Shown: positions 17,703 through 37,762 of the stretch, piece by piece
Numbering within the stretch: the stretch's first letter is position 1
How the letters are laid out: every line of letters begins with the position of its first letter
Assembly: GCA_013286575.1 (NCBI GenBank)
Contig: JABDFL010000007.1
Location: 1 to 44,222 of the forward strand
Source: Candidatus Omnitrophota bacterium
Lineage (GTDB): Bacteria; Omnitrophota; Gorgyraeia; Zapsychrales; Fredricksoniimonadaceae
Length of the DNA stretch: 44,222 nucleotides
Reading direction: 5' to 3'
Translations under genes and position numbers: made by a program
The notes under the pieces: generated by a model
The model's input: the letters and a program-made list of their open reading frames with translations, nothing else
Databases searched by the model: none
Told to the model about the DNA's origin: nothing

Positions 17703-17727
17703 GTGTGTATAATGGCACGGAAAAATC

Positions 17728-22997: not shown

Positions 22998-23299
22998 TGA
23001 GCAGCCAGTACATCACTGTCCGTGAAACAGCGCAGATCCTGGCCGTGTCCGAAAAAAAGGTCATGGACCTGATTGAAAGCGGCAAATTACAAGCATATAA
23101 AATTGCAGACCAATTTTTACGCCTTAAGCGCAATGAAGTCGCCAATATCCTTTCTACCGGCGAGGTCGTTTCTGAAAATATCTCACATAGTTACACTCCC
23201 CAAGAACGCGTGCGTGACTTTTTTTATTTCAACGATTTTTACCTGGTAGCTCTCATTGTTATCGGGGTCCTGCTTTATATCATTTTCTTTACCTACTGA
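22997..23299 (+). CDS. Membrane-anchored HTH_17 protein
   Basis: The 100-residue protein has an N-terminal excisionase/MerR-like HTH (YITVRETAQILAVSEKKVMDLI, KIADQFLRLKRNEV, residues 4-52), a linker, and one C-terminal membrane helix (residues about 80-98, DFYLVALIVIGVLLYIIFF). The topology would place the DNA-binding domain in the cytoplasm at the membrane. The start ATG at 22997 overlaps the upstream TAA; an in-frame start at 22970 would lie inside the upstream gene. The stop overlaps the next ATG by one base. The function is unknown. Confidence 0.75.
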   Translation: MSSQYITVRETAQILAVSEKKVMDLIESGKLQAYKIADQFLRLKRNEVANILSTGEVVSENISHSYTPQERVRDFFYFNDFYLVALIVIGVLLYIIFFTY

Positions 23300-23946: not shown

Positions 23947-23961
23947 AATTTAGAATCGCCC

Positions 23962-23990
23962 TTGTTAATCTTTCATAAACGTTCTATACT
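23962..23990 (+). promoter_or_regulatory. Sigma70-type promoter for the S74 protein, probably leaderless
   Basis: TTGTTA at 23962-23967, 17-bp spacer, TATACT at 23985-23990. The -10 ends 7 nt before the ATG at 23998, so the start site falls on or next to the start codon. No Shine-Dalgarno is present. Confidence 0.6.
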
Positions 23991-23997
23991 TTAATTG

Positions 23998-25374
23998 ATG
24001 AGATACTCTATATTCCCATATGCCGCACTTTTTTTGATCCTGGGAATGTCCTTTGCCTGCGCAGGACAGACCACCTTGACGACCTATTACCCTTCGCCCA
24101 GCGGTAATTATAATACTATGACAGTTGATACGACCGGCACTAATGCTACGACAAATTTGGGTACTACCGGAGCGGTTGATTATTTAGACTTGTACAATAG
24201 CTCAAATAACATAGTTGATTCAATTAATTATGAGGGTTGGGTCGGCGTCGGGACGAATAACCCGGGTTACTTACTTGATGTCCAGGACTCGAGTACCGGC
24301 GGTGCTCAAATTCGTGCCTATAACAGTAGCAACACCACCGGCCGTGCCGGCATAGCTATTACGCAAAGTAACGGTGGCGGCGGTTTTTCCATGCAGCAAT
24401 TAGAAACTGGGGTCGTTGCCATGCAAAACTATAGCACTCTTGATAATGCGATAGATTTTGTTGAGGGCAATGTCGGCATCAATCAAATAAGCCCCGCTTC
24501 TCCTTTGCAGGTGGGTGTTTACCCAACCAATAGCTATACTGCGGGAACAGTGGCTGATTTTAATGCCCCTGCTGACACTTTGTATGCGATTGCTTTACAC
24601 CGTGGTGGGGTAAACAATGCAGAGGGGCTTTTTTTAGGAGTTAATGAGACGTCAGGGTATGCGACAATCCAGTCATTGGAAGATAATGTTGCAGACGAAC
24701 CGCTTCTCTTAAATCCGAATGGCGGCAATGTCGGCATCGGGACGACGACGACGAATGGAACACTGCAAGTAAGCAGCAGCGCAGGTTATACTATTTATAG
24801 TACTAATTCCGGGAGCGCCCTCGGCAGTAATTATTCCATTTTTGCTACAAATTCCGGCACCAAGGCTGGTGCAAATTCTTGGGCCGGTGTTTTTAATAGC
24901 ACAAGCAATGCCTATGGCCTTTATGCATCAGATGTTGTTGGGGCGACCACCTATTATGCTGAGATCGCTGATGGTGCTTATGGTCTTATCACAAATGGTA
25001 CTATATATACCACAACCCTTGCAGCTAATACTAACATCATTAATGATTCCGACGAGCGGTTGAAGAAGGATATTTTGCCCCTTACCGGTGCTTTAGATAA
25101 GATAGAGCGCCTTAACGGTGTGACCTTCAGATGGAAGAAAAACGGTGCCAAAGACATTGGTGTTATTGCTCAAAATGTAGAAAAAGTCTTTCCTGAAATC
25201 GTCAAGATAACTGGCCGGGATGGTATGAAAGGCGTTGAATATGGCAATCTCGCGGCCTTGTTCATTGAAGCGATCAAGGACCAGCAGAAAGAAATTAAAG
25301 ACCAGCAAAAACAGCTCAAGGAACAACAAAAAGAAATTGAAGAATTACAGAAAAAAGTAGGGGTTAATAAGTGA
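23998..25374 (+). CDS. Secreted fibre-like protein with C-terminal S74 intramolecular chaperone
   Basis: The 458-residue protein has a signal peptide (hydrophobic about residues 8-22, FACAGQ), then the mature start QTTLTTYYPSPSGNYNTM. A Ser/Thr/Asn/Gly-rich beta body follows with recurring VGIGT and VGINQ motifs, as in phage and bacterial fibre proteins. Residues about 350-430 form an S74 chaperone domain with SDERLKKDI (Ser351, Lys nearby), FRWKKNGAKDIGVIAQNVEKVFPE and GNLAALFIEAIKDQ, then a coiled coil of KDQQKEI/KEQQKEI heptads. S74 domains trimerise the fibre and then cut themselves off. I use the ATG at 23998; a TTG three bases earlier is possible. It is probably a surface or secreted trimeric fibre. 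Confidence 0.82.
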   Translation: MRYSIFPYAALFLILGMSFACAGQTTLTTYYPSPSGNYNTMTVDTTGTNATTNLGTTGAVDYLDLYNSSNNIVDSINYEGWVGVGTNNPGYLLDVQDSSTGGAQIRAYNSSNTTGRAGIAITQSNGGGGFSMQQLETGVVAMQNYSTLDNAIDFVEGNVGINQISPASPLQVGVYPTNSYTAGTVADFNAPADTLYAIALHRGGVNNAEGLFLGVNETSGYATIQSLEDNVADEPLLLNPNGGNVGIGTTTTNGTLQVSSSAGYTIYSTNSGSALGSNYSIFATNSGTKAGANSWAGVFNSTSNAYGLYASDVVGATTYYAEIADGAYGLITNGTIYTTTLAANTNIINDSDERLKKDILPLTGALDKIERLNGVTFRWKKNGAKDIGVIAQNVEKVFPEIVKITGRDGMKGVEYGNLAALFIEAIKDQQKEIKDQQKQLKEQQKEIEELQKKVGVNK

Positions 25375-25821: not shown

Positions 25822-26115
25822 ATGAGTGATCTGGATAAAATAAAGAAGACTTTGAGACAAAATAAACGAGACCTTCGGCGAGAGTTTAAGGTGAAGGTGC
25901 TTGGTATTTTTGGTTCTTATGTCCGTGGAGAACAGAAGAAAAATAGCGATGTTGATATACTTGTGGATTTTTCCCGAACGCCTGGTTTGTTTGATTATAT
26001 GAAGGTTGAGAGCCGTTTAAGCGACATTCTTCATAAAAAGGTTGATTTGGTCATGAAGGGGGCATTGAAACCGAGCATTGGAAAGAATATCATGCGTGAG
26101 GTTGTTTACGTATGA
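25822..26115 (+). CDS. mntA: MntA-type minimal nucleotidyltransferase antitoxin
   Basis: In characterised MntA-HepT pairs this enzyme AMPylates a tyrosine of the HepT RNase and so blocks it. The 97-residue protein has the minimal nucleotidyltransferase motif G31-S32-x10-D43-V-D45 (GSYVRGEQKKNSDVDILVDF). The C-terminal half (VESRLSDILHKKVDLV, GKNIMREVVYV) fits the family. The stop overlaps the hepT start by 4 bp. The pair lies directly left of the tRNA-Ser insertion site and is AT-rich, so it may also have been acquired, but it is outside the att-bounded element. Confidence 0.88.
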   Translation: MSDLDKIKKTLRQNKRDLRREFKVKVLGIFGSYVRGEQKKNSDVDILVDFSRTPGLFDYMKVESRLSDILHKKVDLVMKGALKPSIGKNIMREVVYV

Positions 26116-26465
26116 TTAGGGAATATAAAGATTTCCTAGTTGATATTATTGATGCTATTGATAAGGTTGAATTTTTTGTCAAAGGAATGAAGTTTGAGAC
26201 TTTTGAGAAAGATGTCAAAACAAGTTTTGCGGTCATAAGAGCGTTTGAAATAATGGGAGAAGCTGTAGGCAAAATCCCTTCCGGTGTTCGCAATAAGCAT
26301 AAAGAAATACCTTGGAAAGAAATGGCTGGCATGAGGCATAAATTAATCCATGAATACTTTGGAGTTAAGCCTCGTGTTGTATGGAAAACAATCAAGCAAG
26401 ACCTGCCTAAAATAAAGCCACATTTACAAAGCATTTTGGATAATCTTCCTAAATCACAACAATAA
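26112..26465 (+). CDS. hepT: HepT-type RNase toxin (DUF86)
   Basis: HEPN-fold ribonuclease toxin of the MntA-HepT system. The 117-residue all-helical protein carries the exact RX4HXY motif at R75, H80 and Y82 (RHKLIHEYF); the tyrosine is the residue AMPylated by MntA in studied homologues. The N-terminal YKDFLVDIIDAIDKVEFFV and RAFEIMGEAVGKIP are typical. It is coupled to mntA by ATGA. The motif is intact, so the toxin is probably active. Confidence 0.9.
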   Translation: MIREYKDFLVDIIDAIDKVEFFVKGMKFETFEKDVKTSFAVIRAFEIMGEAVGKIPSGVRNKHKEIPWKEMAGMRHKLIHEYFGVKPRVVWKTIKQDLPKIKPHLQSILDNLPKSQQ

Positions 26466-26566: not shown

Positions 26567-26654
26567 GGAGAGGTGGCAGAGTGGCCGAATGCGGCGGTCT
26601 TGAAAACCGTTGCCTCGCGAGGGGCCGTGAGTTCGAATCTCACCCTCTCCGCCA
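26567..26654 (+). tRNA. tRNA-Ser (anticodon UGA), 3' CCA encoded; integration target
   Basis: An 88-nt class II tRNA. Acceptor GGAGAGG (26567-26573) pairs with CCTCTCC (26644-26650), followed by discriminator G and an encoded CCA. The anticodon stem CGGT/ACCG holds loop CTTGAAA with anticodon TGA at 26601-26603. There is a long variable arm (GCCTCGCGAGGGGC) and a T-arm with GTTCGAATC. The last 17 nt plus one flanking base are repeated at 37745-37762 as the other end of an integrated element. Confidence 0.96.
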
Positions 26655-26655
26655 T
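26638..26655 (+). repeat. attL direct repeat (3' end of tRNA-Ser)
   Basis: TCTCACCCTCTCCGCCAT, identical over 18 bp to 37745-37762; bases on both sides differ. It keeps the tRNA 3' end functional after insertion. Confidence 0.9.
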
Positions 26656-26669
26656 ACTTTTAGTAGCAA

Positions 26670-26700
26670 TTGTAACTATCTTGTAATAGGATAGTTACAA
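26670..26700 (+). promoter_or_regulatory. Inverted repeat at the left end, before the integrase
   Basis: A perfect 11-bp inverted repeat, TTGTAACTATC (26670-26680) and GATAGTTACAA (26690-26700), with a 9-nt loop. It could be a recombinase/excisionase binding site or an operator (a TACAAT -10-like box overlaps its right arm). No U-run follows. Confidence 0.5.
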
Positions 26701-26726
26701 TATCTCGACTCCCCCGTTGAGATGAG

Positions 26727-26747
26727 TGTGCCCAAATTGGGCCCATG
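26727..26747 (+). repeat. Left copy of a TGTGCCC palindromic motif
   Basis: TGTGCCCAAATTGGGCCCAT plus one G, an imperfect palindrome in the integrase 5' leader. A copy with one mismatch in 21 lies near the right end at 37596-37616, and a related palindrome at 37537-37556. Confidence 0.65.
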
Positions 26748-26775
26748 TTCAATCAACATCAACGGGGAGGTCAGT

Positions 26776-27807
26776 ATGGCAAGTCTTAGATTCAGAGCTG
26801 GTCGGTATTATGTTGATTACCGTGTCAAAGGCCGCAGGGTACGTAAGTCCGTCGGTAAATCACGAAAAACAGCAGAATTAGCAGTCAAAGACATTGAAGT
26901 AAAGTTAGAACGGCAAGAAATTGGTTTTGTAGAAAACGATTCAGAATTAAGTAAACTCTTCGAAGAATACAAAGTCTACAGTCAAGTCCATCACGCTCCT
27001 GCCACACAAAATCGCTATAGAGCCATCCTCGATAATTTCAAAAGATACTTAAAGAAATTTCCCTTCGTAAAGAAAGTCTCCCAACTCGATTCAAAATTCT
27101 TTGAAGACTATCAAGCCTACCGCAAATCGCAAAATGCCGCCAATAAAACAGTCAATGTTGAGGTGATTTGTTTAAAGGCCATGTTCTATCAAGGCATGCG
27201 GTGGGGTTATGTTAGAGTCAATCCCTTAAAGGGCGTTAAGGAACTCAAGGAAGAGGTTAATAAAAAGCCGCGGTTCTTGAGCAAAGAGGAGTGCAAAGCG
27301 CTTCTTGAGAACTGTGATTCATTTTTTCGCCCAATTTTCTATACCTTCCTGAATACAGGGATGCGTAAAGCCGAACTAGAAAATCTGACCTGGAATGATA
27401 TCGACTTCGGGCGCAGGAAAATAAAAATCCGCTATAAAGATGATTGGAGTCCTAAAACATCAGAGCGTGAAATTCCAATCAATAACGGCTTGTTTGAACT
27501 ATTAACCGATCTAAAACAAAAGACCTTCATCAAATCCTGCCCCTATATTTTTCATCGTGATGGAGAAAAGATCGATCCAAACTATCTACGCCGTCAGTTG
27601 ATTTTATTAGCTAAGGTTTGTGAATTTCAGGACGTCACCAAAATTCATACGCTTAGACACACCTTTGCCAGTCATCTGATCATGGGTGGGGTTGATTTGC
27701 CTACCGTCAAAAAGCTATTGGGACATGCAAATATCGATACAACCATGATCTATTCCCATCTGGCCGATGAGCATGTGGACAAGGCGGTGGAAGCCCTAAG
27801 CTTTTAG
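26776..27807 (+). CDS. int: Tyrosine site-specific integrase
   Basis: Catalyses integration and excision at the tRNA-Ser att sites. The 343-residue protein has an N-terminal arm-binding sheet (LRFRAGRYYVDYRVKGRRVRKSVG), a core-binding domain (about residues 65-165), and the catalytic domain with Arg in NTGMRKAELENLTW, HTLRHTFASHL (HxxR), GHANIDTTMIYSHL (His and Tyr nucleophile). I chose the ATG at 26776 because GGGGAGG lies 5 bp upstream; an in-frame ATG at 26722 would translate the palindromic left-end motif. It reads inward from attL, the usual layout of tRNA-targeted elements. Confidence 0.94.
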   Translation: MASLRFRAGRYYVDYRVKGRRVRKSVGKSRKTAELAVKDIEVKLERQEIGFVENDSELSKLFEEYKVYSQVHHAPATQNRYRAILDNFKRYLKKFPFVKKVSQLDSKFFEDYQAYRKSQNAANKTVNVEVICLKAMFYQGMRWGYVRVNPLKGVKELKEEVNKKPRFLSKEECKALLENCDSFFRPIFYTFLNTGMRKAELENLTWNDIDFGRRKIKIRYKDDWSPKTSEREIPINNGLFELLTDLKQKTFIKSCPYIFHRDGEKIDPNYLRRQLILLAKVCEFQDVTKIHTLRHTFASHLIMGGVDLPTVKKLLGHANIDTTMIYSHLADEHVDKAVEALSF

Positions 27808-27810
27808 GGT

Positions 27811-27838
27811 TTGACAATTGTATCAAGTGTGATACACT
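27811..27838 (+). promoter_or_regulatory. Promoter with embedded operator for the DUF4160/HTH pair
   Basis: TTGACA at 27811-27816 and TACACT at 27833-27838, 16-bp spacer. The spacer holds a perfect 7-bp inverted repeat with 4-bp gap, TGTATCA-AGTG-TGATACA (27819-27836), reaching into the -10. This is the classic place for an XRE-type autorepressor to bind. Confidence 0.7.
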
Positions 27839-27874
27839 TTAATTAATCAGTAACCGTTCTTTGGGAGATAGTAT

Positions 27875-28069
27875 ATGAGTGAGAAAAAGATTGGAGGATT
27901 CATTTTTAGAATATATAAAAATGATCATCGTCCGTACCATGTGCATATTATTAAAGGCAACAAAGAAATAGGAAGATTTGATATTGAGAACCAAAGATCA
28001 ATGGATGAAAGACTAAAAATAACAGGGCAATTACGTAAAGCTTTAAAAGAAGCCGGTTATTTAAAATAG
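27875..28069 (+). CDS. DUF4160-family small protein, probable toxin partner
   Basis: The 64-residue protein has the DUF4160 hallmark FIFRIYKNDHRPYHVHII followed by GRFDIENQR. DUF4160 genes commonly sit beside DUF2442 or HTH genes in toxin-antitoxin-like pairs; the biochemical activity is not established to my knowledge. A GGGAG ribosome site precedes the ATG. The next gene starts 10 bp later and encodes a protein with an XRE HTH, so the two are probably one operon under the 27811 promoter. Confidence 0.8.
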   Translation: MSEKKIGGFIFRIYKNDHRPYHVHIIKGNKEIGRFDIENQRSMDERLKITGQLRKALKEAGYLK

Positions 28070-28079
28070 GAGTAAATTT

Positions 28080-28922
28080 ATGAAATCAGATATTTTATTA
28101 TTAACAAAGAATACGAGAATAGCCAACGAGTTAAAGCATCTCTCTAATGCAAAGGTCCATACTGTTGGTGTTCCTTCTCAAATTAACAATATTTTTAAGA
28201 AGAATGGAAAGCATTTAGAGGTGGCTTTGCTTGATTTAACTTATCCAGAAGATGATCTCAATAGGTTTATTTTCTACATTAAACAGTATAAAAAAGACAT
28301 TCCTGTTTTATTGCTTAGTTCAAATCGCTATTTAAATGCAGAAAGCGAAGCTATGCGTAATCTATCTGTTTATGGATATATAAAACATCCGGAAAATATT
28401 GAGGAGATAGAAGAAATTTTAGAGGATTTGAACAGATTGTTTGAGCTCGATATGGACAAGAAATTCGATAAAGTTGATTATCTGGAAGGTGAAAAAGTTT
28501 TTGCATGCACTTTTAAGGATATGAAGAAGTATTTTCTTAAGCGAAGCAGTGTTCCTGATAATGTTGATAGTAAAATCACTGATATCGATATTGATAAAAC
28601 AGGATACCATTTTACTATTGAATATGCATCTGGTGAAAAATCCGTTATTCCCTGGGATTATGTGAAACATATGTGTGATGACAAGTACGAATATTATAGA
28701 ACCAACAATAAGACTGATGTTCCAGCTCATGAGATTGGACGGAGGATAAAAGAAATTCGTCAATCAAAGAAATTGACGCAAGATGAATTAGCTGTGAAAT
28801 CAGGTATTCAAAGGGCAAATATTGCCAGGATTGAATCAGGCAAACATAAGCCTTATTTAGAAACATTAGAGAAGATAGCTGGGGCGTTTAATATGCCTGT
28901 TGCCTATTTTATTGCACGTTAA
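28080..28922 (+). CDS. Pseudo-receiver / DUF2442-like / XRE helix-turn-helix regulator
   Basis: The 280-residue protein has three parts. Residues 1-120 look like a response-regulator receiver: Asp52 in LLDLTYPEDD, Ser80 in VLLLSSN, Lys102 in YGYIKHPE. The acidic pair that binds Mg is missing (ILLLTKN replaces ILIVDDD), so phosphorylation is doubtful. Residues 130-205 resemble DUF2442 (VFACTFKDMKKYFL, YHFTIEYASGEKSVIPWDYV). Residues 218-278 are an XRE HTH (IGRRIKEIRQSKKLTQDELA, SGIQRANIARIESG). The ribosome site is AGGAG. It probably represses its own promoter at 27811 and neutralises the DUF4160 partner. Confidence 0.75.
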   Translation: MKSDILLLTKNTRIANELKHLSNAKVHTVGVPSQINNIFKKNGKHLEVALLDLTYPEDDLNRFIFYIKQYKKDIPVLLLSSNRYLNAESEAMRNLSVYGYIKHPENIEEIEEILEDLNRLFELDMDKKFDKVDYLEGEKVFACTFKDMKKYFLKRSSVPDNVDSKITDIDIDKTGYHFTIEYASGEKSVIPWDYVKHMCDDKYEYYRTNNKTDVPAHEIGRRIKEIRQSKKLTQDELAVKSGIQRANIARIESGKHKPYLETLEKIAGAFNMPVAYFIAR

Positions 28923-28947
28923 TAAATATTATTCTTAAAAATAATAT

Positions 28948-28974
28948 GTCATTCCCGCGCAAGCGGGAATCCAG
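28948..28974 (+). repeat. GTCATTCCCG-type palindromic repeat
   Basis: GTCATTCCCGCGCAAGCGGG followed by AATCCAG: stem ATTCCCGC/GCGGGAAT. A diverged relative lies at 37414-37447 in the opposite orientation. Similar short palindromes are dispersed in many bacterial genomes. It lies just before the next gene's ribosome site. Confidence 0.65.
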
Positions 28975-28988
28975 AAACGGAGGCGAAC

Positions 28989-29384
28989 ATGTTAGGAAGC
29001 TTCTGTAGTAGGCTTGCTAACCATAATTACAGAATTCTATTGGTCGAAGCAGTAGTCCTGTCTGTAATAATAGGCGCCGGTCTTGCCTCATGGCCCGGAG
29101 TTATTGTTTTACTAGTGGCCTTAACGTGGGTATTGAGCAAACATTGGGGAACAATTTATTTGATTGGCATTTTTAGCAGTGCCTGGGGTTTCCTAGCCGG
29201 CATGATCGGTTATGGCATAGGTGGATGGGCTTGGACATTGCTATTGGGCATCTTGGCCTTAATAAGCGGTGTTAAGATTCACTTACGGGATCTGAAAAAG
29301 CCGCTTGTTGATGAAGTTTTTGAACAATTCAACAGTCAGCAATGGAGACAGAACTGGCATTTGGGACCTCAGAATTTGAATTAG
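28989..29384 (+). CDS. Small multi-pass membrane protein, unknown
   Basis: The 131-residue protein has three to four hydrophobic segments (about residues 17-33, 36-50, 56-75 and 78-95) rich in Gly/Ala (IIGAGLASWPGVIVLLVAL, GFLAGMIGYGIGGWAWTLLLG), then a polar cytoplasmic-type tail (DLKKPLVDEVFEQFNSQQWRQN). A good CGGAGG ribosome site precedes it and a strong terminator follows, so it is a monocistronic unit. No family is recognised. Its base composition is closer to the host than the rest of the element. Confidence 0.65.
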   Translation: MLGSFCSRLANHNYRILLVEAVVLSVIIGAGLASWPGVIVLLVALTWVLSKHWGTIYLIGIFSSAWGFLAGMIGYGIGGWAWTLLLGILALISGVKIHLRDLKKPLVDEVFEQFNSQQWRQNWHLGPQNLN

Positions 29385-29411
29385 AGTCAGTTATTTAGCT
29401 TCAAAATACTT

Positions 29412-29444
29412 ACCTCCTTATTTTATAAGGAGGTTTTTATTTTT
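29412..29444 (+). terminator. Rho-independent terminator
   Basis: Perfect 9-bp stem ACCTCCTTA (29412-29420) and TAAGGAGGT (29426-29434) with a 5-nt loop, then TTTTATTTTT. It ends the unit of the small membrane protein before the KAP ATPase cluster. Confidence 0.92.
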
Positions 29445-29469
29445 GGTAGTATAATCCTGTAATTGTAGA

Positions 29470-29498
29470 TACAGGACATGTAACGGGGATTATAAGTA
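29470..29498 (+). repeat. Recurrent intergenic motif, copy before the KAP ATPase
   Basis: TACAGGACATG then TAACGGGGATTATAAGTA. The same string with small changes occurs at 32832-32863 and shortened at 33327-33348. A TATAAT lies just upstream at 29450-29455. Confidence 0.6.
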
Positions 29499-29516
29499 AA
29501 AAGTATTTAAAAGAAT

Positions 29517-31790
29517 ATGTTTATGAGTAAAATTGCTAATTTAATTGAGAATTTATTTAAAAAGTTTTCTGTTAATAAGAAAACCAAAAAAATGTCCGGA
29601 GAGAAAAATAATCCAGCCGTAGATATTTTATCTAAGAATTCTTTTCTCTCAGATTCTCCTTTAACCGAATCTACAAAAGATGAATTTAAAAGAAGGCCTT
29701 TTGCTCAAAAACTAGCAAAAATAATATTATCTCATTTAGGGTCTGATAGCCTAGTGATCGGCATAAATGGGAAATGGGGAGAAGGAAAAACAACAGTACT
29801 AAAATTCATTGAGAACGAAATTAAAGAAGATCCTAATAAAGTCATTTGCATTTGGTTTAATCCTTGGGTATACAAGGACGAGGATCTACTGCTTCTGCAT
29901 TTTTTTAATAGCTTATCTACTGAATTACAAAAATCACTAAAATCATCTAAAGAAGTTGTTGGAGCATTAATAAAAAATGGAAGTTATGTATTTCCTACTT
30001 TTGATGTCTCGATGCCTGATGGATCAACAGTGGGAATTAATATCGGAGAAAGCTTAGAAAGATTTGGTGACAATTTATCGTCTGTTGACAACAGTGAGTT
30101 AAAAACTCGTCTAGAGAAAATATTAAAGGCTCTAGGAAAACGTATAGTCATCTTGATGGATGATATTGATAGACTTGACAAGAGTGAAATTCAGAATATT
30201 TTTAAGCTTATTAAATTGATGGCCAATTTCCCATATACAAATTATATTTTAACATTTGATCAGGAAATGGTTTCTAAAGCACTTGGTGAACAATACGGTG
30301 GAGGGTCAGAAGAAGGATGCAATTTTCTAGAAAAGATTATTCAGGTTCCCATTAATTTGCCGTTACTAGATAAGGCTTCGCTGCGCACGTATTGTTTTAA
30401 TATAATTAATGAAGTATTTAAGATGTCTAAAGTTGAACCGAATGAAGACCAAGCTAGGGAGTACGCAAGGTGTTTTGTAAATTTTCTAGAAATTAGACTA
30501 AAAACACCTCGAATGGCCAAAAGGTATGGGAATCTTTTAACTTTTATATTGCCACTAATAGGAAATGAAGTCAATTTAGTCGATTTGATGTTAATTGAAG
30601 GAGCTAGGGTTTTTTACCCGGATTTGTATACATTTATTAGGACAAAACAAGATTTATTTTTAGGTCTATATTTGGATTCTTTAGGCAGAAAACCGGAAGT
30701 AAAAACAAAAATTGTAAAATATATTAATGGATGTTTGGAAAATCTAAATGAAGATGAGAAGGATGCTGCGAGAGAATTGATAAAGTATTTATTCCCTACG
30801 CTTGAATGGGTATTTGGTGGTGCTGTCTATGATGGGCTTCAGTGGGAAGAAAAGTGGGCGGAAGATAAACGGGTTGCCTCTAGAGCTTATTATCGTAGAT
30901 ATTTTACTTATTCGGTTCCAGAGGGAGATATTTCTGATGAAGAGATCGAAGGATTTATAGTGAAATTAAAGGATTCTGATATTAATACTATCATATCGGA
31001 AATAAGGAAGCTGGTCGGCGAAACTAGAGCAGAAATTTTCGTTTCGAAACTTAAAGCATATGAAAAGAAATTTACGGTTGATGTTGCTCGCAACCTATCC
31101 TTAGCAATATCAAAATTAGGCAACATATTCCCTGACCCAGATATGATGTTTTCTGTTGGGCCTTTTTCTCAAGCCGCAATTCTTATTGGTCGTTTAATTA
31201 AACTGGTCCCACAGAATGAAGGTCGTTTTGATTTGGCAAAGACTATAATTACAGAGGGAGATCCTCTATATTTTGTAAGTGAGTGTTTTCTGTGGATAAA
31301 GGCCTCTAAAGAACACGAAGAAAATAGGTTATTAACAAAAGAAGAGGAAAAGCAGCTTGGCGCTATAATTGCTAACCGCGTAGAAGCGTTATCGAAAAAT
31401 GAAGTAATTTTTCTGAGTTTCCCTAAAGCTGCCCAACGTTTTTTATCAATGTGGTCCCAATGGGGGGATAAGAAAAAGGTACAACAGTATTTGGCTGACT
31501 TAATTAATACTGATTCGAAAAATGCAATTTTATTAATTAGGAGTTTTCTATCAAGATCGTATGGTGAGGATGGGGTACGACTAAAGAGTGATTTTGATAG
31601 AAATGGGTATGAGGTTATTAAGCAGCTTATTGATCCTGAAATTTTAATTAAAGGACTAACCAAATTATTTGGGGAGTTAGATGGTAAGACATATCGTCAT
31701 CTGGAAGACACGAAGGGTGAAGATGAAGACAAAATATTAGCAGAGCAATTTGTTTCCATTCATAATTATGCTAAGTCGGAGAATAAGTAA
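29517..31790 (+). CDS. KAP-family P-loop NTPase, candidate defence ATPase
   Basis: The 757-residue protein has a KAP Walker A, GINGKWGEGKTTVL (about residues 82-95), the W-F-N-P-W motif CIWFNPWVYKDEDLLLLHFF after it, and Walker B RIVILMDDIDRL (about residues 209-220), followed by the sensor-like LTFDQEMVSKALG. The long C-terminal half is helical and of unknown fold. The membrane helices that often interrupt KAP domains are absent here. KAP ATPases occur in antiphage systems such as Qat. The start is either 29517 or the ATG at 29523; neither has a clear ribosome site. It heads a run of co-oriented cargo genes. Confidence 0.85.
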   Translation: MFMSKIANLIENLFKKFSVNKKTKKMSGEKNNPAVDILSKNSFLSDSPLTESTKDEFKRRPFAQKLAKIILSHLGSDSLVIGINGKWGEGKTTVLKFIENEIKEDPNKVICIWFNPWVYKDEDLLLLHFFNSLSTELQKSLKSSKEVVGALIKNGSYVFPTFDVSMPDGSTVGINIGESLERFGDNLSSVDNSELKTRLEKILKALGKRIVILMDDIDRLDKSEIQNIFKLIKLMANFPYTNYILTFDQEMVSKALGEQYGGGSEEGCNFLEKIIQVPINLPLLDKASLRTYCFNIINEVFKMSKVEPNEDQAREYARCFVNFLEIRLKTPRMAKRYGNLLTFILPLIGNEVNLVDLMLIEGARVFYPDLYTFIRTKQDLFLGLYLDSLGRKPEVKTKIVKYINGCLENLNEDEKDAARELIKYLFPTLEWVFGGAVYDGLQWEEKWAEDKRVASRAYYRRYFTYSVPEGDISDEEIEGFIVKLKDSDINTIISEIRKLVGETRAEIFVSKLKAYEKKFTVDVARNLSLAISKLGNIFPDPDMMFSVGPFSQAAILIGRLIKLVPQNEGRFDLAKTIITEGDPLYFVSECFLWIKASKEHEENRLLTKEEEKQLGAIIANRVEALSKNEVIFLSFPKAAQRFLSMWSQWGDKKKVQQYLADLINTDSKNAILLIRSFLSRSYGEDGVRLKSDFDRNGYEVIKQLIDPEILIKGLTKLFGELDGKTYRHLEDTKGEDEDKILAEQFVSIHNYAKSENK

Positions 31791-31812
31791 ATTAAAGATG
31801 TAGGGAAAGGTA

Positions 31813-32781
31813 ATGAAAATGGAAGATTTGTTAAAAAATCTTAGAGATTCAATACTGGTAACGGTTATTACTATTATATTCACGTCTTTTGGGTTTAAAA
31901 CTTGGTTTGAGTATTTGATTCTTTTTTGTGTCGTTGTTGTCGTATTACAGGTATTAAAATTGTTTACTCCATTTGTGGTACTTTTAATGAATATAAAACG
32001 AAAATATTTAGTTAAAGTTGCGATTTTAAATGGTTCAATTTTTCAAACAGAAAAAGAACATAGGTGTGTTCGTACCTGGATAGGGATTACTCCAGAAATG
32101 TGGCGTAGGGCATTAATTCCTCTTTTTCCCTATTTTGGTAAATCATGGACTAGATCTTTGCATTTAATCCCTGTTACAGAAATTAATGATTCATGGTCAA
32201 TAATTATTAATCCGTTTGGAGATAATTTTCCAGAGAAAGATCAAAAGCTCCATGAAACCTTTTATAAAATATGCAGTTTTGTTTCCAATGGAGGGATTTT
32301 TATAGTAACGGGAGGAGCTTTCTTTTTGCATCAAAATCCAATTGTTTCAGAGAAAGCAGAGCTTTTCATGACTCATCTTATTGATGGTAAGCAGAATTTG
32401 GAGACATCATCATTGTTTCAAGAATTTGGCGTAAGGATGACAGGGGATGTCTATGAAAATAATCAGTTGGTTTCTAGTGAACCAGTTAGAGTAGGGGTTG
32501 AACAAACACAAGAAGACATTGAACGTTTTGGTAATGTTTTACAAGGGATTACTTCCTTAGAAAGATTCCGTTCCACATCTGCAGGGAGTTCTAACTACCT
32601 TCCTTTAATTCGGCAAATTGATGGATTAAATTTTCCCATTGCAATTATCCCGTATGGTAAAGGAGCATTAGTTCATATTGGTTTACATATTACGTCTGAA
32701 ACTTCCGATGAATTTAAAGTTGTTACACGGGTATTAACAAGTATTATCCAAAACAATATGCAAAGTGTGCTTGGTCAATAG
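31813..32781 (+). CDS. Membrane-anchored protein with amidotransferase-fold-like domain
   Basis: The 322-residue protein has two N-terminal hydrophobic segments (about residues 14-30 and 33-58), then a soluble domain. Features such as SWSIIINPFGDNFPEKDQ, FYKICSFVSNGGIFIVTGGAFF and the late FPIAIIPYGKGALVHIGLHI resemble the Rossmann-like class I glutamine amidotransferase/ThuA scaffold, in which SxGGxxV/IxxGG forms a strand-turn. No catalytic Cys at the expected place is visible, so it may be a ligand-binding sensor. The ribosome site AGGGAAAGG allows ATG 31813 or 31819. It sits between the KAP ATPase and a nuclease gene. Confidence 0.6.
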   Translation: MKMEDLLKNLRDSILVTVITIIFTSFGFKTWFEYLILFCVVVVVLQVLKLFTPFVVLLMNIKRKYLVKVAILNGSIFQTEKEHRCVRTWIGITPEMWRRALIPLFPYFGKSWTRSLHLIPVTEINDSWSIIINPFGDNFPEKDQKLHETFYKICSFVSNGGIFIVTGGAFFLHQNPIVSEKAELFMTHLIDGKQNLETSSLFQEFGVRMTGDVYENNQLVSSEPVRVGVEQTQEDIERFGNVLQGITSLERFRSTSAGSSNYLPLIRQIDGLNFPIAIIPYGKGALVHIGLHITSETSDEFKVVTRVLTSIIQNNMQSVLGQ

Positions 32782-32863
32782 GGATTATAAGAAGTAGGGG
32801 ATTATAAAAATATATCTCCTATAATAGAAGTTACAGGATATAACGGAGATTATGATAAGTAGG
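32781..32863 (+). repeat. Recurrent intergenic motif, double copy
   Basis: GGGATTATAAGAAGTAGGGG at 32781-32800 is followed by ATTATAA, a TATAAT at 32820-32825, then TACAGGATATAACGGAGATT and ATGATAAGTAGG ending at 32863. The second half matches 29470-29498. ATCTCC and GGAGAT flank the middle as an inverted pair. Confidence 0.55.
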
Positions 32864-32873
32864 CGTTAGTTAT

Positions 32874-33326
32874 ATGACTTTAAAGCCGGACGATTTAGAG
32901 ATGGTAATATTTGATATTCTAAAGAAAGAGCTTTCCTTAGATGACGTTCATATTTTTTTAGAGAAGAAGTTCTACGAGTCTTCTCAAAAATATCCCAATG
33001 TTAAAGATATGGTCGTATTTGTTACATATTTTTGCCAAGATCGGTTACGTTTTAAAGACAATCAAAAAGCAGAAATTATTAAAGTAGATCTATTATCAAG
33101 GGATTTTTCTGCTCAAACTGGTGTGATGGATATTCAAATGGCTTTAAAATCAAAATATGCCAGAGAACAACAGGAAAAATTTAATATCAATATCCTTAAT
33201 ACAAGTGAACCAATGGATTTGTCTTCACTTGAAGGAAAAGGCATTCGATGTAGGTATGAAATAAATATTACAGTTTTAAATAATTCACATTCCATTGATT
33301 TTGATTCTAGAAAATTGTCAAGATAG
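32874..33326 (+). CDS. Small protein of unknown function, helical N-terminus
   Basis: The 150-residue protein has an all-helical N-terminal part (LEMVIFDILKKELSLDDVHIFLEKKFYESSQKYPNVKDMVVFVTYFCQDRLRF, residues 8-60) that resembles effector-associated or death-like adaptor domains in length and pattern. The rest (residues 65-150) looks like alternating strands with no known motif. It has no signal peptide or membrane segment. The ribosome site is weak. It is flanked by recurrent intergenic motifs and lies directly before the nuclease gene. The adaptor idea is inference only. Confidence 0.6.
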   Translation: MTLKPDDLEMVIFDILKKELSLDDVHIFLEKKFYESSQKYPNVKDMVVFVTYFCQDRLRFKDNQKAEIIKVDLLSRDFSAQTGVMDIQMALKSKYAREQQEKFNINILNTSEPMDLSSLEGKGIRCRYEINITVLNNSHSIDFDSRKLSR

Positions 33327-33348
33327 CAGGGATTATGATAAATAGGGA
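33327..33348 (+). repeat. Recurrent intergenic motif, short copy
   Basis: CAGGGATTATGATAAATAGG then GA, matching the 3' half of 32832-32863. It overlaps the AGGGA ribosome site of the nuclease gene. A weaker copy (AATAATAGGGACTATCAT) lies at about 34378. Confidence 0.55.
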
Positions 33349-33355
33349 AAATTAA

Positions 33356-34366
33356 ATGTTTGAACCACTTCAATTTGAGAAGTTAAATGAGGCAGATGTC
33401 AGAGAAGAAATACTGGCGCCTCTAATTAATGCTTTAGGTTACCGTTCAGGGGATATTAATGGGGTTATCCGCGAGCAATCACTACGGTATCCACAAATTT
33501 TCTTAGGACGAAAAGACCCTAGAAAAGATCCTCTTTTGAGAGGTAAGGCAGATTATATACTTGAGGCGGGAGAAAGGGTCAGGTGGGTTCTCGAAGCAAA
33601 AGCGCCAGATCGTGAAATTCTTATTGATGATATTGAGCAGGCTTGGAGTTACGCGAATCACCCTGAAGTACGTGCTGTATATTTTGTTCTGTCCAATGGA
33701 CGGACTTTTCATGTTTACCAGACAAGAAACGGCCCCAATGTGGCACCGATTTTTATTTTAAAATACGAGGAATTGTCAACTAACCTCTCTCGCGTTAAGA
33801 ACCTCTTGGGTCCAGAGGCGATTCTTCGTGATAATCCATCTATTATTCCTGATACCGGGGAACCTCTAGGAACTGGGCTTCGATCAGTAGCTCGTATTAC
33901 TGGTGGGTTTATTAAATATGAATCTAATTCAGTTGGGTTGGCTGCTCTTAATGAATTGCAAGTAGCGATTTCTGAAGGAGCGGTTGAGAGGAATGAAACA
34001 GGGAAAATGGTAGCTTTCCTTAAAACATTAAGCCCTATTCGTTCCTTTCAGGAACTTAATGATCGACTTGGCTTATCATCGTTTGAGATGGTTAGCGAGA
34101 GCGGTGTTCTCTCTGTAGATCGTCAATTGCCAACAAGATTTTCATATGATAATACAATTATATTTCCAAAGGGTGAGCGTTTGTTGAACCTTTTGACGTG
34201 GGAGAATGTTGTTTTACCGTTTAATTTGTCATGTCATGTGCAGGCTGAGGCAATGGGGATTCTTATAGGACACAAATATTCAGGAAGATTTTCGACCGAA
34301 ATACGGTATGTTGAGCAACCTTTAGTTGTAAAAGTAATTGGTGTATTTGAACTAACTATCGTGTAA
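33356..34366 (+). CDS. HsdR-N-like PD-(D/E)xK nuclease
   Basis: The 336-residue protein opens with the type I restriction R-subunit N-terminal nuclease pattern: NEADVREEILAPLINALGY (Glu-rich first helix), VIREQSLRYP, RGKADYIL with Asp66 and WVLEAKAP with Glu80-x-Lys82, then IDDIEQAWSYANHPEVRAVYFVLSNGRTFHVYQ. The catalytic D...ExK is complete. No helicase or specificity domains follow; residues 200-336 are an unrecognised C-terminal region. It is probably a stand-alone DNA-cutting effector of the cargo cluster. A good AGGGA ribosome site lies 8 bp before the ATG. Confidence 0.82.
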   Translation: MFEPLQFEKLNEADVREEILAPLINALGYRSGDINGVIREQSLRYPQIFLGRKDPRKDPLLRGKADYILEAGERVRWVLEAKAPDREILIDDIEQAWSYANHPEVRAVYFVLSNGRTFHVYQTRNGPNVAPIFILKYEELSTNLSRVKNLLGPEAILRDNPSIIPDTGEPLGTGLRSVARITGGFIKYESNSVGLAALNELQVAISEGAVERNETGKMVAFLKTLSPIRSFQELNDRLGLSSFEMVSESGVLSVDRQLPTRFSYDNTIIFPKGERLLNLLTWENVVLPFNLSCHVQAEAMGILIGHKYSGRFSTEIRYVEQPLVVKVIGVFELTIV

Positions 34367-34425
34367 TAAGTGGAAATAAATAATAGGGACTATCATATTT
34401 TGAAAATATAATGGGAGAGCAATCT

Positions 34426-35547
34426 ATGCTTTTAGGTCAGTGGATGGGACCAGTTGGGAATGGTACTAATAAAGGTTTTGTTATTGTAAATTTTGAATCT
34501 TATATCGAGAGAGAAGGTATGTGGACTGGACGTTTTTGTTTCACAGATGATGATAAGACTTTGGCTAATTTCTTTGGAATAGTGCAAATTAAAAAAGAAG
34601 GTGATAAATATAATGGTTTAGCGTTTGATTTTTTTATTTCAAACACTGAGAAGAATATTCTAGAAAGCAGAGATTCTTGGTTAACCCACCATAGGGAATC
34701 TAATTTTCCTAAATTAATAAAAATTACTAACGGAGTTTGTGACGGATCAATTCTAAAAGCGCAATATCAGTCTGATGCTTCCACAAATGGTGATTTTATC
34801 GTACATAAGATTGACACTGATACCGTTATTAGCCCAAAAAAGATTTTTACTTGGAAAGATTTCAAAGCGTGGATTGATAGTAGAAAAAAAGGACTCTTAT
34901 TTAGGGGGCAAAGAGATAGCCAGAAGCTAAAAACATCATTTCATCGCCACGGGAGAAATGATCTTATTCGTTATTTTCAGAATGATTTTCAAACTCTCGG
35001 GCATAACATGAATTCTTTAAAGGATTATACCTATAACCTTAATGATAGTACGGATAGAAATGCATTAATAAGTGTTGCTCAGCATCATGGTTTTCCAACA
35101 CCTTGTTTAGATTGGACAGAATCGCCGTATATAGCTGCATTTTTTGCATTTGAAGGAATAGATAAACGAAACGTCAATCAAATATCAAATGTAAGAATTT
35201 TTGTTTTTGATTATGGAGAATGGTCTAAACCAGAAAACCCCAATTATTATATAAAAGGGAATTTTTTAGATACTAGGCCTTCTTTAGTATTTCATTTGTT
35301 CCCAGCTGTAAATAATGATCGCGCTTTACCGCAGCAGTCGGTGTTTATGTTTTCAAATATTTCTGATATTGAGAGCTGGGTTCATCATTGTGAGGGGATT
35401 GGTAAGGAGTATTTATATTGCTTTGACTTGCCATATTCTGAACGTCAATTAGCAATGGATGATTTACGATCAATGGGCGTAACTCACGCATCTTTATTCC
35501 CTGGGAAAGATGGTATTTGTAAGTCTTTAAGGGAAAGATTGTTTTGA
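34426..35547 (+). CDS. FRG-domain protein
   Basis: The 373-residue protein has a beta-rich N-terminal half (FVIVNFESYIEREGMWTGRF) and an FRG domain in the C-terminal half: LLFRGQRDSQKLKTSFHRHG, SVAQHHGFPTPCLDWTESPYIAAFFAF, PQQSVFMFSN. FRG domains are found in defence and toxin contexts and have been likened to ADP-ribosyl-processing or nucleotide-binding enzymes, but their activity is not firmly known. I prefer the ATG at 34426, with GGGAG 8 bp upstream, over the ATG at 34411, which lies at that ribosome site. Confidence 0.8.
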   Translation: MLLGQWMGPVGNGTNKGFVIVNFESYIEREGMWTGRFCFTDDDKTLANFFGIVQIKKEGDKYNGLAFDFFISNTEKNILESRDSWLTHHRESNFPKLIKITNGVCDGSILKAQYQSDASTNGDFIVHKIDTDTVISPKKIFTWKDFKAWIDSRKKGLLFRGQRDSQKLKTSFHRHGRNDLIRYFQNDFQTLGHNMNSLKDYTYNLNDSTDRNALISVAQHHGFPTPCLDWTESPYIAAFFAFEGIDKRNVNQISNVRIFVFDYGEWSKPENPNYYIKGNFLDTRPSLVFHLFPAVNNDRALPQQSVFMFSNISDIESWVHHCEGIGKEYLYCFDLPYSERQLAMDDLRSMGVTHASLFPGKDGICKSLRERLF

Positions 35548-35582
35548 AATTAAATAGTTTGGTTTTAACGCGTTAGCTAATT

Positions 35583-35611
35583 TTGACAGAAGGGTAATTA
35601 AGGTTTATAGT
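35583..35611 (+). promoter_or_regulatory. Strong sigma70-type promoter
   Basis: TTGACA at 35583-35588, 17-bp spacer, TATAGT at 35606-35611. Start site expected near 35618, giving a leader of about 50 nt before the ATG at 35670. It is preceded by a TAACGCGTTA palindrome at about 35567. Confidence 0.7.
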
Positions 35612-35669
35612 ATGAATCTATTTCATTTTAATATTAACCATTTTATTAGAAACAACAGGAAATAAAAGT

Positions 35670-36059
35670 ATGGCAAACACTTTAGAGTACCTTTTTACTT
35701 GTGGTCGTGTAATAAGAGATCAAACTTCAGGATTATTTACTTATGTTGATGGATTTGACACTCTTTTTATTCCAAAAGAGTCTGATTTTCTTTATCAAAA
35801 TATATGTATTATAGCAAGAGTATATTATGCTGTTGGCGGTATTGTTAAAGCAGAAATAAGGTTTGTAGATCCAGATAGGGTTGATTCAACCCCAGTAGTT
35901 ATAACAGGAGCTATGTCCCCTGGTTATATTCAACTCGCGGCCGCTTTTCCAATACAAAAGTTTACTAAAGTAGGTAAATACTATATGAAAATAAAATTTC
36001 AAGACGTAGAATTGGAGAATGAAAACAAATTTTATTTTGAAGTCTTAAAACGACAATAA
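35670..36059 (+). CDS. Small beta-rich protein, possibly DUF6941-like
   Basis: The 129-residue protein has predicted strands throughout (LEYLFTCGRVIRDQTSGLFTYVDGFDTLFIP, CIIARVYYAVGGIVKAEIRFVDPD, YIQLAAAFPIQKFTKVGKYYMKIKFQDVELENENKFYFEVL), an arrangement like C2/Ig-type sandwiches and like small DUF6941 proteins. It has its own strong promoter and an AGGA ribosome site. The next gene follows 5 bp later, so the two form a small operon. Function unknown. Confidence 0.6.
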   Translation: MANTLEYLFTCGRVIRDQTSGLFTYVDGFDTLFIPKESDFLYQNICIIARVYYAVGGIVKAEIRFVDPDRVDSTPVVITGAMSPGYIQLAAAFPIQKFTKVGKYYMKIKFQDVELENENKFYFEVLKRQ

Positions 36060-36064
36060 TATTT

Positions 36065-36430
36065 ATGCCTGATCAATCACAAATTCCGCCTCCGGATACT
36101 CCTAAGGGACAGGGTTTAGATGGGAAACAGTCTCCAGATTCCCCTCAGAATCTCGAAGCAAAACTTTTAGAAAAAGTTGAAACTCTAGCAGAACAAATAA
36201 AACTAGCTACTAGCGATATTAAGCTGGGCAAAGAAGATCTTCAAAAAGGCAAAGAGGATATAAAGGCAACAAAAGACATAGTATATTTTGGGTTTATCAT
36301 TCTATTATTTATGTTTGGTTTATCAATAATTCAATCTTGGGATGAAAAAACTCGATCTAACATGACATTAATAGATAAAGTCGATTCTTTACAAACTCAG
36401 CTTAAATTACTAGAACAATCAAATAATTAA
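36065..36430 (+). CDS. Coiled-coil single-pass membrane protein, unknown
   Basis: The 121-residue protein has a Pro/Gln-rich N-terminus, a charged coiled coil with near repeats (DIKLGKEDLQKGKEDIKATKD, residues about 25-72), one membrane helix (IVYFGFIILLFMFGLSIIQS, residues 73-92) and a short second coiled coil (MTLIDKVDSLQTQLKLLEQ). It is translationally linked to the upstream gene (5-bp gap, no own ribosome site). It could be the membrane anchor or pore partner of the beta-rich protein. No family recognised. Confidence 0.6.
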   Translation: MPDQSQIPPPDTPKGQGLDGKQSPDSPQNLEAKLLEKVETLAEQIKLATSDIKLGKEDLQKGKEDIKATKDIVYFGFIILLFMFGLSIIQSWDEKTRSNMTLIDKVDSLQTQLKLLEQSNN

Positions 36431-36553
36431 ATTTCACCTAATGTCTCACCTTATACGTCGGAGAATCTTCCGGCCGATTATAGTAATATTTCCTGTAATA
36501 ACATTTTCAGGATGTAAACGTATCAGGTTTATTACAATTTCATTACAAAATCA

Positions 36554-36590
36554 TTACAACTGTCCGTAACGAAGTTGTAATTTTTTATTT
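36554..36590 (+). terminator. Rho-independent terminator
   Basis: Stem TTACAACT (36554-36561) and AGTTGTAA (36573-36580) followed by TTTTTTATTT. It is preceded by three near-direct CATTACAA repeats. It closes the cargo operon. Confidence 0.75.
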
Positions 36591-36596
36591 CTGTAA

Positions 36597-36714
36597 CTCT
36601 CCCATTGGCAAGGGGTTTTCGGGATGAAGCTCCCGAAACCGCGGCAGACCACTCCCCCTCAACGATAAAGCGAGAGGGGTAGTGGTCTGCCGCTACCAAT
36701 TGCCAATGGGAGAG
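36597..36714 (+). ncRNA. Large three-way-junction inverted repeat, candidate structured RNA or DNA site
   Basis: Outer stem: perfect 15 bp, CTCTCCCATTGGCAA (36597-36611) with its complement at 36700-36714. Inner arm 1: GGTTTTCGGGA (36614-36624) with TCCCGAAACC (36631-36640), one bulge. Inner arm 2: perfect 13 bp, GCGGCAGACCACT (36641-36653) with its complement at 36681-36693, extended by CCCCTC/GAGGGG and capped by a 13-nt loop. The nearly gap-free junction suggests selection for structure. It could be an ncRNA, a cruciform protein-binding site or a replication/recombination site. The strand of transcription is not known; plus is given by default. Confidence 0.6.
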
Positions 36715-36974
36715 AGTAGGTATTTAGAGAGGTAGTATAAGTTAAGTGTAGTTAGTAGAGGTATGAGATGAATGATGAATAGGATGTATGGTTGGGTAGG
36801 TTATGTTGAAGGGTGGGTTGTGTTGATGGATTAGGATGTGTTGATGAGTAAGTTGTTGTTGAAGGGTGGGTTGGGTTGATGAATTAGGAGGTGTTGTGTT
36901 GGTTGTTTTGTGGGTTGTTTGGGGTTTAGGGAGGGTGTTGATAGGATGGTTGTTAGTGGTTATGGAATGTTGTT
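36705..36974 (+). other. 270-nt tract with no cytosine on the plus strand
   Basis: From the A after C36704 to the base before C36975 the plus strand contains only A, G and T. It begins inside the right arm of the three-way-junction repeat. It is rich in GGGTGGGTTGGG-type runs, so G-quadruplexes are possible on the plus strand. Short open frames through it are low-complexity (Val/Leu/Trp/Gly) and not convincing genes. Confidence 0.95.
36804..36896 (+). repeat. Direct repeat within the cytosine-free tract
   Basis: Two 40-nt units at 36804-36843 and 36857-36896 (period 53), both starting TGTTGAAGGGTGGGTTG, matching at 37 of 40 positions. Confidence 0.85.
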
Positions 36975-37206
36975 CCAGTTTCGGTCATGAAAAGTATATA
37001 CTGCGGGAGCATCCCCAAAATGCTCCAGGCGTTGTATTGATAGGAATAATTGACTTATCGGCTTGTTATGGTATTATACAAATATTGATTAATAATCAAT
37101 TATAGTTTGATTAATTATATGTAAGCTCAATTTCTTTTCCCAAATAAGGTTATTGAACTTTCAAGATGCGTTTTTTGTATCTTGAAAATTTTATGGGGGA
37201 AAAGAA
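36975..37206 (+). promoter_or_regulatory. Promoter, operator and leader hairpins of the excisionase-like gene
   Basis: A hairpin GGAGCAT/ATGCTCC lies at 37006-37026. The promoter is TTGACT at 37050-37055 and TATTAT at 37072-37077 with an extended -10 TG at 37069-37070. Directly after it an inverted repeat ATTGATT-AAT-AATCAAT (37084-37100) could be an operator. The leader contains a perfect 9-bp hairpin TTTCAAGAT (37159-37167)/ATCTTGAAA (37179-37187) shortly before the GGGGGA ribosome site. Confidence 0.6.
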
Positions 37207-37452
37207 ATGGAGAGATTATTGAAGATCAACGAAGTTAGCGAAATGTTGCAGATGAGTCCTAAGACGATTTATCATTGGGTGCATTGTGGGAGTATTCCTT
37301 ATTTTAAAGTTTATCGTGAGCGTGGTGCTGCTGGGGTTATTCGGTTTAGGCAGTCGGATTTGGAGAAGTGGTTGCAGGTGAGGAGGCAAAATAAAAATCG
37401 GTTAAGTGCTATGTCTGGATCCCCGACAGAAGCATTCGGGGATGACAATTAG
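37207..37452 (+). CDS. Excisionase-like HTH_17 protein (recombination directionality factor candidate)
   Basis: The 81-residue protein has an AlpA/excisionase-type winged HTH: LLKINEVSEMLQMSPKTIYHWVHCGSIPYFKVYR, then VIRFRQSDLEKWLQVRRQ. Its place near attR, with a well-made promoter, fits an excisionase for the integrase at the other end. The ribosome site is GGGGGAAAAG. The last 12 residues (SGSPTEAFGDDN) come from a palindromic repeat that has entered the 3' end of the gene, so the original C-terminus was probably different. Confidence 0.8.
   Translation: MERLLKINEVSEMLQMSPKTIYHWVHCGSIPYFKVYRERGAAGVIRFRQSDLEKWLQVRRQNKNRLSAMSGSPTEAFGDDN
37414..37447 (-). repeat. Palindromic repeat at the 3' end of the excisionase-like gene
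   Basis: TCTGGATCCCCGACAGAAGC then ATTCGGGGATGACA: stem TCCCCGA/TCGGGGA. It is related to 28948-28974 in reverse orientation (TCATCCCCG, then GGATCCAGA). It encodes the last residues before the stop of the host gene. Confidence 0.65.
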
Positions 37453-37536
37453 AATTAATTAAAAAAGATTTAGATTTATCCTGCCTTGATTTAGTGCTAT
37501 AATTTCTATCGTATAAATTGCTTTTATCCGACGAGC

Positions 37537-37556
37537 TGTGCCCATGTTTGGGCACA
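37537..37556 (+). repeat. TGTGCCC palindrome, right end copy 1
   Basis: TGTGCCC-ATGTTT-GGGCACA, perfect 7-bp arms. Same core as the left-end motif at 26727. Confidence 0.65.
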
Positions 37557-37595
37557 AAATCGGAAAGTGTTCAAGTAAAAGGTTTTTATTAATTT

Positions 37596-37616
37596 TGTGC
37601 CCAAATTGAGCCCATG
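37596..37616 (+). repeat. TGTGCCC motif, right end copy 2
   Basis: TGTGCCCAAATTGAGCCCAT plus one G; one mismatch in 21 to the left-end copy at 26727-26747. Same orientation. Confidence 0.7.
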
Positions 37617-37744
37617 ATCTCACAAAATGGGGGGTAACGGAAGGTAAGGCGAAGGAAACGTAAGAGGGGCTAATATCTTGCAATAAAACGGGTTATATCG
37701 TAAATCGTTTTATTTCAAAAAGTTAAAAAAACAGCCTAAAAGTT

Positions 37745-37762
37745 TCTCACCCTCTCCGCCAT
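37745..37762 (+). repeat. attR direct repeat
   Basis: TCTCACCCTCTCCGCCAT, exact 18-bp copy of the tRNA-Ser 3' end. Flanking bases do not match, so this defines the right boundary of the element. The next gene starts 22 bp later. Confidence 0.9.

Follow-up and report, generated by a model that had tools for sequence, protein, structure and literature searches.

In CONJscan, the Pfam family Replic_Relax (PF13814) represents the MobC class of relaxases (PMC5357655). The prototype of this class (MOBC), TraX of pAD1, pairs a winged helix-turn-helix (wHTH) domain with one resembling restriction enzymes, and its binding sites are five direct repeats located 70-120 bp from the nick site (nic). A covalent relaxase-DNA intermediate was not observed for TraX, and how MOBC systems bring DNA to the secretion channel when no relaxase is covalently attached to it has been named as an open question (PMC12857230). 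Here we analyzed a 44,222-nt stretch of DNA from a Candidatus Omnitrophota bacterium (contig JABDFL010000007.1, referred to below as the window), in which a run of 270 nt without a single cytosine adjoins a large hairpin and an array of short direct repeats (iterons). At a probability of about 80%, these elements together constitute an origin of transfer (oriT) of the MOBC type with the C-free tract as its 3' part, since the same module recurs in related genomes in a fixed orientation in front of the gene for a predicted wHTH and PD-(D/E)XK protein, the first gene of a VirB/VirD4 operon.

Repeats, hairpin and C-free tract form a single recurring module

The C-free tract was delimited by composition count at positions 36705-36974 of the plus strand (the minus strand is G-free) and consists of 110 G, 101 T, 59 A, and 0 C. 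The runner-up C-free run in the window measures 62 nt, 60 sequences simulated from the window with an order-3 Markov model contained no run longer than 72 nt, and the log10 probability expected for such a run at a given start is -25.7 at the composition of the window. The preliminary description of this DNA, which was made from the letters alone, was thus exact about the 270 bases without cytosine. It was likewise correct in reporting a 40-nt direct repeat in the tract (36804-36843 and 36857-36896, 93% identical) and a start of the run within an arm of a large structured repeat, which is the 3' arm of the inverted repeat 36597-36616/36695-36714. The predicted folding energy of the tract as single-stranded DNA (ssDNA) is zero on both strands (150 nt tested).

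In a whole-genome scan of the order to which the bacterium belongs, 6 of 81 genomes contained C-free runs that reach 126 nt. In three of these six, namely the window genome, G010 (162 nt) and G027 (159 nt), the long runs belong to the module described below, lie on a common strand and start at the equivalent foot of the hairpin. The presence of the feature in independent assemblies argues against an assembly artefact.

The module is non-coding and spans about 450 bp, comprising 11-nt direct repeats with inverted copies, a three-way-junction hairpin and the C-depleted tract as its 3' part. The iterons occupy 36532-36590 (plus strand), with TTACAA units at 36532, 36543, and 36554, that is, at 11-nt spacing, followed by inverted copies at ~36564 and ~36575 and a T-run. 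The period of 11 nt is found in all copies of the module (z = 12.9 for the autocorrelation at lag 11, with all other lags at 3 or below), while the iteron sequence varies among them (TTACAA, GAACAAA, GGCACAAA, and others). The hairpin (36594-36718, 125 nt, plus strand; 139 bits with model R1) is built of an outer stem (~36597-36611/36700-36714), a short arm (36612-36640) and a long arm (36641-36693), and its fold is far more stable than that of shuffled sequences, as RNA and as DNA alike (z ~ -11).

In the structure derived from seven copies, 20 of the 45 pairs show compensatory changes. A larger alignment, in which some antisense rows were included, gave 400 two-sided against 14 one-sided changed cells, and none of 500 shuffles matched the observed covariation. 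G-U pairs make up 1.9% of the paired cells, compared with 5.4% in tRNAs from the same loci. The low share of G-U pairs and the excess of two-sided over one-sided changes suggest, without being decisive, that the structure is maintained at the DNA level.

An initial DNA search yielded copies of the module in genomes of the same genus and family, while the exact DNA pattern of the hairpin, searched in the family, matched only the window copy. A covariance model built on seven copies recovered about 28 copies in 19 of the 81 genomes of the order. In a 384-genome sample of the phylum, the module occurs almost exclusively in this order. Three lower-scoring matches fall in other families; two of these, G098 and G135, immediately precede an open reading frame (ORF) that shares the HD/PD..EYE residues.

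Across 26 copies, the mean C content is ~16% before the hairpin and 4% over the 25 nt that directly follow it, with a recovery spread over ~200 nt. C is rarer than G in the tract of 25 of these copies, and the five copies lowest in C fall below all 404 control intergenic windows taken from the same loci. Copy pairs with hairpins of 87-89% identity have tracts that are just 55-59% identical (52% for unrelated pairs), indicating that composition is conserved and sequence is not. C-depletion is conserved and polar although the tract sequence varies. It is not universal, as G046, G011b, G080, G008, and G068b are near background. The question raised beforehand, whether homologous elements are depleted as well, can be answered only in part in the affirmative: the copies hold far fewer cytosines than expected, but some C is present and the tract sequences are unalignable.

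Linked conjugation genes and the tRNA-Ser island

In four genomes (G039, G053, G054, and G069), the gene immediately after the module encodes a protein of ~240 amino acids and stands at the head of an operon, which in most loci continues with TrbC/VirB2, TraC/VirB4, VirB6-like, TraE-like, TrbI/VirB10, and TraG/VirD4 genes. This protein, the relaxase candidate, was detected in 14 of the 81 genomes, 13 of which also carry the module (Fisher p = 9e-10). Ten module-candidate pairs are adjacent (16-847 bp), four share a contig at a distance of 10-53 kb, and all 14 have one and the same orientation. One member of the candidate family passes the Pfam cut-off for Replic_Relax (28.3 vs 25.3 bits). The AlphaFold2 model (pLDDT 90.9) predicts a wHTH at the N terminus and, in the C-terminal part, an alpha/beta nuclease-like fold, and the residues PD..EYER.LK are invariant. 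Judged by sequence and predicted fold, the linked gene probably encodes a winged-helix/PD-(D/E)XK protein of the MOBC relaxase type. Solved structures gave weak matches alone, by sequence or by fold. The records in which relatives of the candidate occur are named Candidatus Omnitrophota, and no close relatives were found in the plasmid records searched. Taken together, the loci provide an oriT candidate, a matching relaxase candidate and a type IV secretion system (T4SS) for conjugation in Omnitrophota.

By their position beside the hairpin and their strict period, the 11-nt direct repeats are a candidate relaxase-binding site. In the window, the relaxase of a helper, that is, of a co-resident conjugative element, would bind these repeats and nick in or next to the hairpin. 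The nicked strand would then exit via the VirB/VirD4 channel, and the surrounding island would thereby be mobilized in trans. The direction of transfer can be argued both ways: the geometry of pAD1, taken as an analogy, and the rule that transfer genes enter last would favour leftward transfer, while rightward transfer is favoured by ardA and RadC/ParB-like genes (the latter recognized by sequence inspection) next to the tract. The antirestriction gene ardA, which is typical of leading regions (PMC11541004), is among the first genes after the module in G006, G010, and G027.

The window copy resides in an island of 11.1 kb (26638-37762) that is bounded by exact 18-bp att repeats at a tRNA-Ser gene. 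The features listed here all lie on the plus strand. The integration site is the tRNA-Ser (tga) gene at 26567-26654 (ARAGORN); attL (TCTCACCCTCTCCGCCAT, 26638-26655) coincides with the 3' end of the tRNA gene and is repeated exactly as attR at 37745-37762. A tyrosine integrase (26722-27807; Pfam Phage_integrase, 2.2e-29) is encoded at one end and an HTH_17 protein (37207-37452; Pfam HTH_17, 6.6e-13), excisionase-like by domain and position, at the other. The cargo includes a PifA-like KAP P-loop NTPase (29517-31790; Pfam KAP_NTPase, 2.6e-53; PADLOC PifA, 277 bits) and an FRG-domain protein (34411-35547; Pfam FRG, 4.7e-19; PADLOC PDC-S15, 5e-41), which is a defence candidate. No relaxase or T4SS gene was recognized in the island when most of its ORFs were scanned with Pfam and PADLOC.

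A relaxase-less mobilizable island, that is, an iOriT layout, is the best reading of this arrangement, and we know of no described iOriT case in Omnitrophota. The module of G006, a genome of the same genus, has a hairpin 87% identical to that of the window and shares the TTACAA iterons; by this resemblance, its conjugative element is a possible helper type for the window island. A search for the empty integration site in relatives found the flanking region, with no adjacent tRNA-Ser in the loci retrieved. The covariance model provides a search tool for small relaxase-less islands with defence-like genes in Omnitrophota.

Several further observations concern copies of the module and the surroundings of the island. 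Locus L013 carries three tandem copies within 1.1 kb (16644-17740, minus strand) beside a large serine recombinase, possibly representing stacked mobilizable elements. A variant lacking the long arm and carrying GGCACAAA iterons precedes a Fic gene, with a serine recombinase nearby (L005/L014, 4668-4733, minus strand). A truncated module immediately 3' of a tRNA-Ser (gga) gene (L007, 1343-1600) looks like the relic of a similar island. At L003 (1694-2149, minus strand), an ORF truncated by the end of the contig, so that its C-terminal part remains, lies just upstream of the module; it contains a YSDD motif and appears reverse-transcriptase-like by eye, with no Pfam match. A contig labelled Phenylobacterium (L099, 1231-1363, minus strand) carries the module (91 bits) together with an Omnitrophota-like relaxase candidate, which may reflect contamination or cross-phylum transfer. 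In the window itself, an MNT/HepT-like pair (nucleotidyltransferase and HepT-like RNase, 25822-26465) is located just outside the island beside the tRNA-Ser gene, and a truncated integrase N-terminal domain with a Peptidase_S74 chaperone protein (23299-25374) is a possible prophage or island remnant.

Role of the C-free tract and alternative explanations

Because the arrangement of repeats, hairpin and tract recurs beside conjugation genes in relatives, our results suggest that the C-depleted stretch helps to open or feed ssDNA in cell-to-cell transfer. Among the explanations offered in the preliminary description, the best fit is a tract related to DNA unwinding or replication and connected to the structured repeat, as the module behaves like an oriT. 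More specifically, the tract may be a structure-free, strand-marked segment for melting or ssDNA loading, a role we propose tentatively and at slightly less than even odds. It might be kept C-free on one strand and G-free on the other so that neither opened strand makes G:C hairpins, and it might load a helicase, the coupling protein or the departing strand, with the choice of strand setting the polarity. More doubtful again is the general form of this idea, in which a MOBC-type relaxase would use a conserved, strand-specific C-free segment (G-free in the complement) by the oriT hairpin as a structure-free entry or loading strand. Such a segment would be a new oriT part, recognized by its composition, one strand being without C, and not by its sequence. 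The C-free tract would in this way make the question of MOBC DNA recruitment testable.

A number of results weigh against the oriT assignment or the role proposed for the tract. CloDF13, a plasmid with a MOBC relaxase according to the literature, has no comparable tract (C-free or G-free runs of at most 43 nt), and an 11-nt array is not obvious in it. A profile search with the candidate detected no relaxase or relaxase candidate in the genome from which the window comes (52% complete). Most members of the candidate family score below the Pfam cut-off for Replic_Relax, and a fold search against the PDB gave no significant match, the best being restriction enzymes at E = 0.13. Moreover, C-depletion is weak or absent in the relaxase-adjacent copies of G046, G080, G053, and G011b, showing that a C-free tract is not strictly required. 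Finally, both strands are equally structure-free, so the strand bias is unexplained by lack of structure alone.

The strand polarity would be accounted for if the module were a transcription insulator, in which the iteron hairpin and T-run act as an intrinsic terminator in the sense direction and the G-free, C-rich minus-strand RNA acts as a Rho-loading (rut) site at which antisense transcripts end ahead of the hairpin. Rut sites are G-poor and C-rich, a composition matched by the 270-nt minus-strand RNA that the tract would give (0 G, 41% C), and a T-run does close the iteron module. However, the tract of the window has no excess of the YC dinucleotides that Rho prefers (64 observed vs 69 expected; 1.1-fold over all copies), and 270 G-free nt are more than a rut site requires. 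We therefore consider an insulator unlikely.

A mutational scar is slightly less probable than that. Here, repeated exposure of ssDNA during transfer would lead to deamination of C to uracil, and C would be lost as a function of the distance from nic without any selection. The peak of depletion at the hairpin with its fading over ~200 nt would be expected in this case, as would a tract conserved in composition and not in sequence. On the other hand, T is up by a few points only, and the gain in G is of similar size; in the window tract G reaches 41% and A is down to 22%, so that C-to-T change alone is insufficient. The same figures give no support to plain C-to-T conversion as put forward in the preliminary description.

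An origin for replication or priming of DNA synthesis on the excised circle appears improbable. Transcription of the tract would yield a G-rich, C-free RNA whose stable R-loop, or a G-quadruplex, would prime synthesis, in agreement with the strong G-over-C strand bias 3' of the hairpin and with the resemblance of the repeats to those of plasmid origins, of which iteron-like repeats are typical too. A canonical (G3) G-quadruplex motif is present in the window copy but in none of the other 26 of the 27 copies, so that the G-quadruplex proposed earlier also fails as a general explanation. In addition, no replication initiator was recognized in the window island, and the linked gene is probably of a relaxase class and stands at the head of a conjugation operon.

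The least probable alternative is a non-coding RNA that is structured and ends in a C-free tail. The very stable RNA fold, the covariation and the precedent of an island-encoded RNA required for mobilization in SGI1 (PMC9299015) can be cited for it, but the two-sided pair changes expected for a DNA-level palindrome, the few G-U pairs, the linkage to conjugation genes, and an Rfam search with no confident match (sub-threshold miRNA, snoRNA, and sRNA matches only) leave this reading, and the RNA selected to lack C of the preliminary description, unsupported.

Comparison with described systems

As a probable oriT, the module can be set beside four kinds of described elements. With integron attC sites and CALIN hairpins it shares an imperfect DNA hairpin that is held by compensatory change and repeated in mobile DNA; a cassette array with an integron integrase was not seen, whereas the module is linked to a Replic_Relax-like protein and T4SS genes.

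The single-strand promoters Frpo and ssi of leading regions are likewise hairpins that act as ssDNA near oriT, upstream of ArdA (PMC11541004), but a -35/-10 pair was not seen in the module hairpin. A separate long hairpin with TTGACA in its stem recurs upstream of ardA and of another early gene in relatives (L010 ~11450-11540, L012 ~10157-10239, also L053). It is a better candidate for a Frpo-like single-strand promoter than the module hairpin.

The window island resembles iOriT elements, which are integrative mobilizable elements that have an oriT only, in its integrase, att repeats at a tRNA gene, defence-like cargo, oriT-like module, and lack of a recognized relaxase (PMC11389934). It differs from them in residing in Omnitrophota and in having a helper that we infer.

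The module also resembles the oriT of MOBC systems, as in pAD1 with TraX and CloDF13 with MobC, where direct repeats as candidate relaxase sites, an inverted-repeat structure, and a relaxase, here a candidate, with a wHTH and a restriction-enzyme-like fold, here predicted, are shared (PMC12857230); the likeness to pAD1 is one of description and not of sequence alignment. Peculiar to the module of Omnitrophota are the three-way-junction hairpin with conserved loops, the strict 11-nt iterons with inverted copies, and the strand-specific C-depleted tract.
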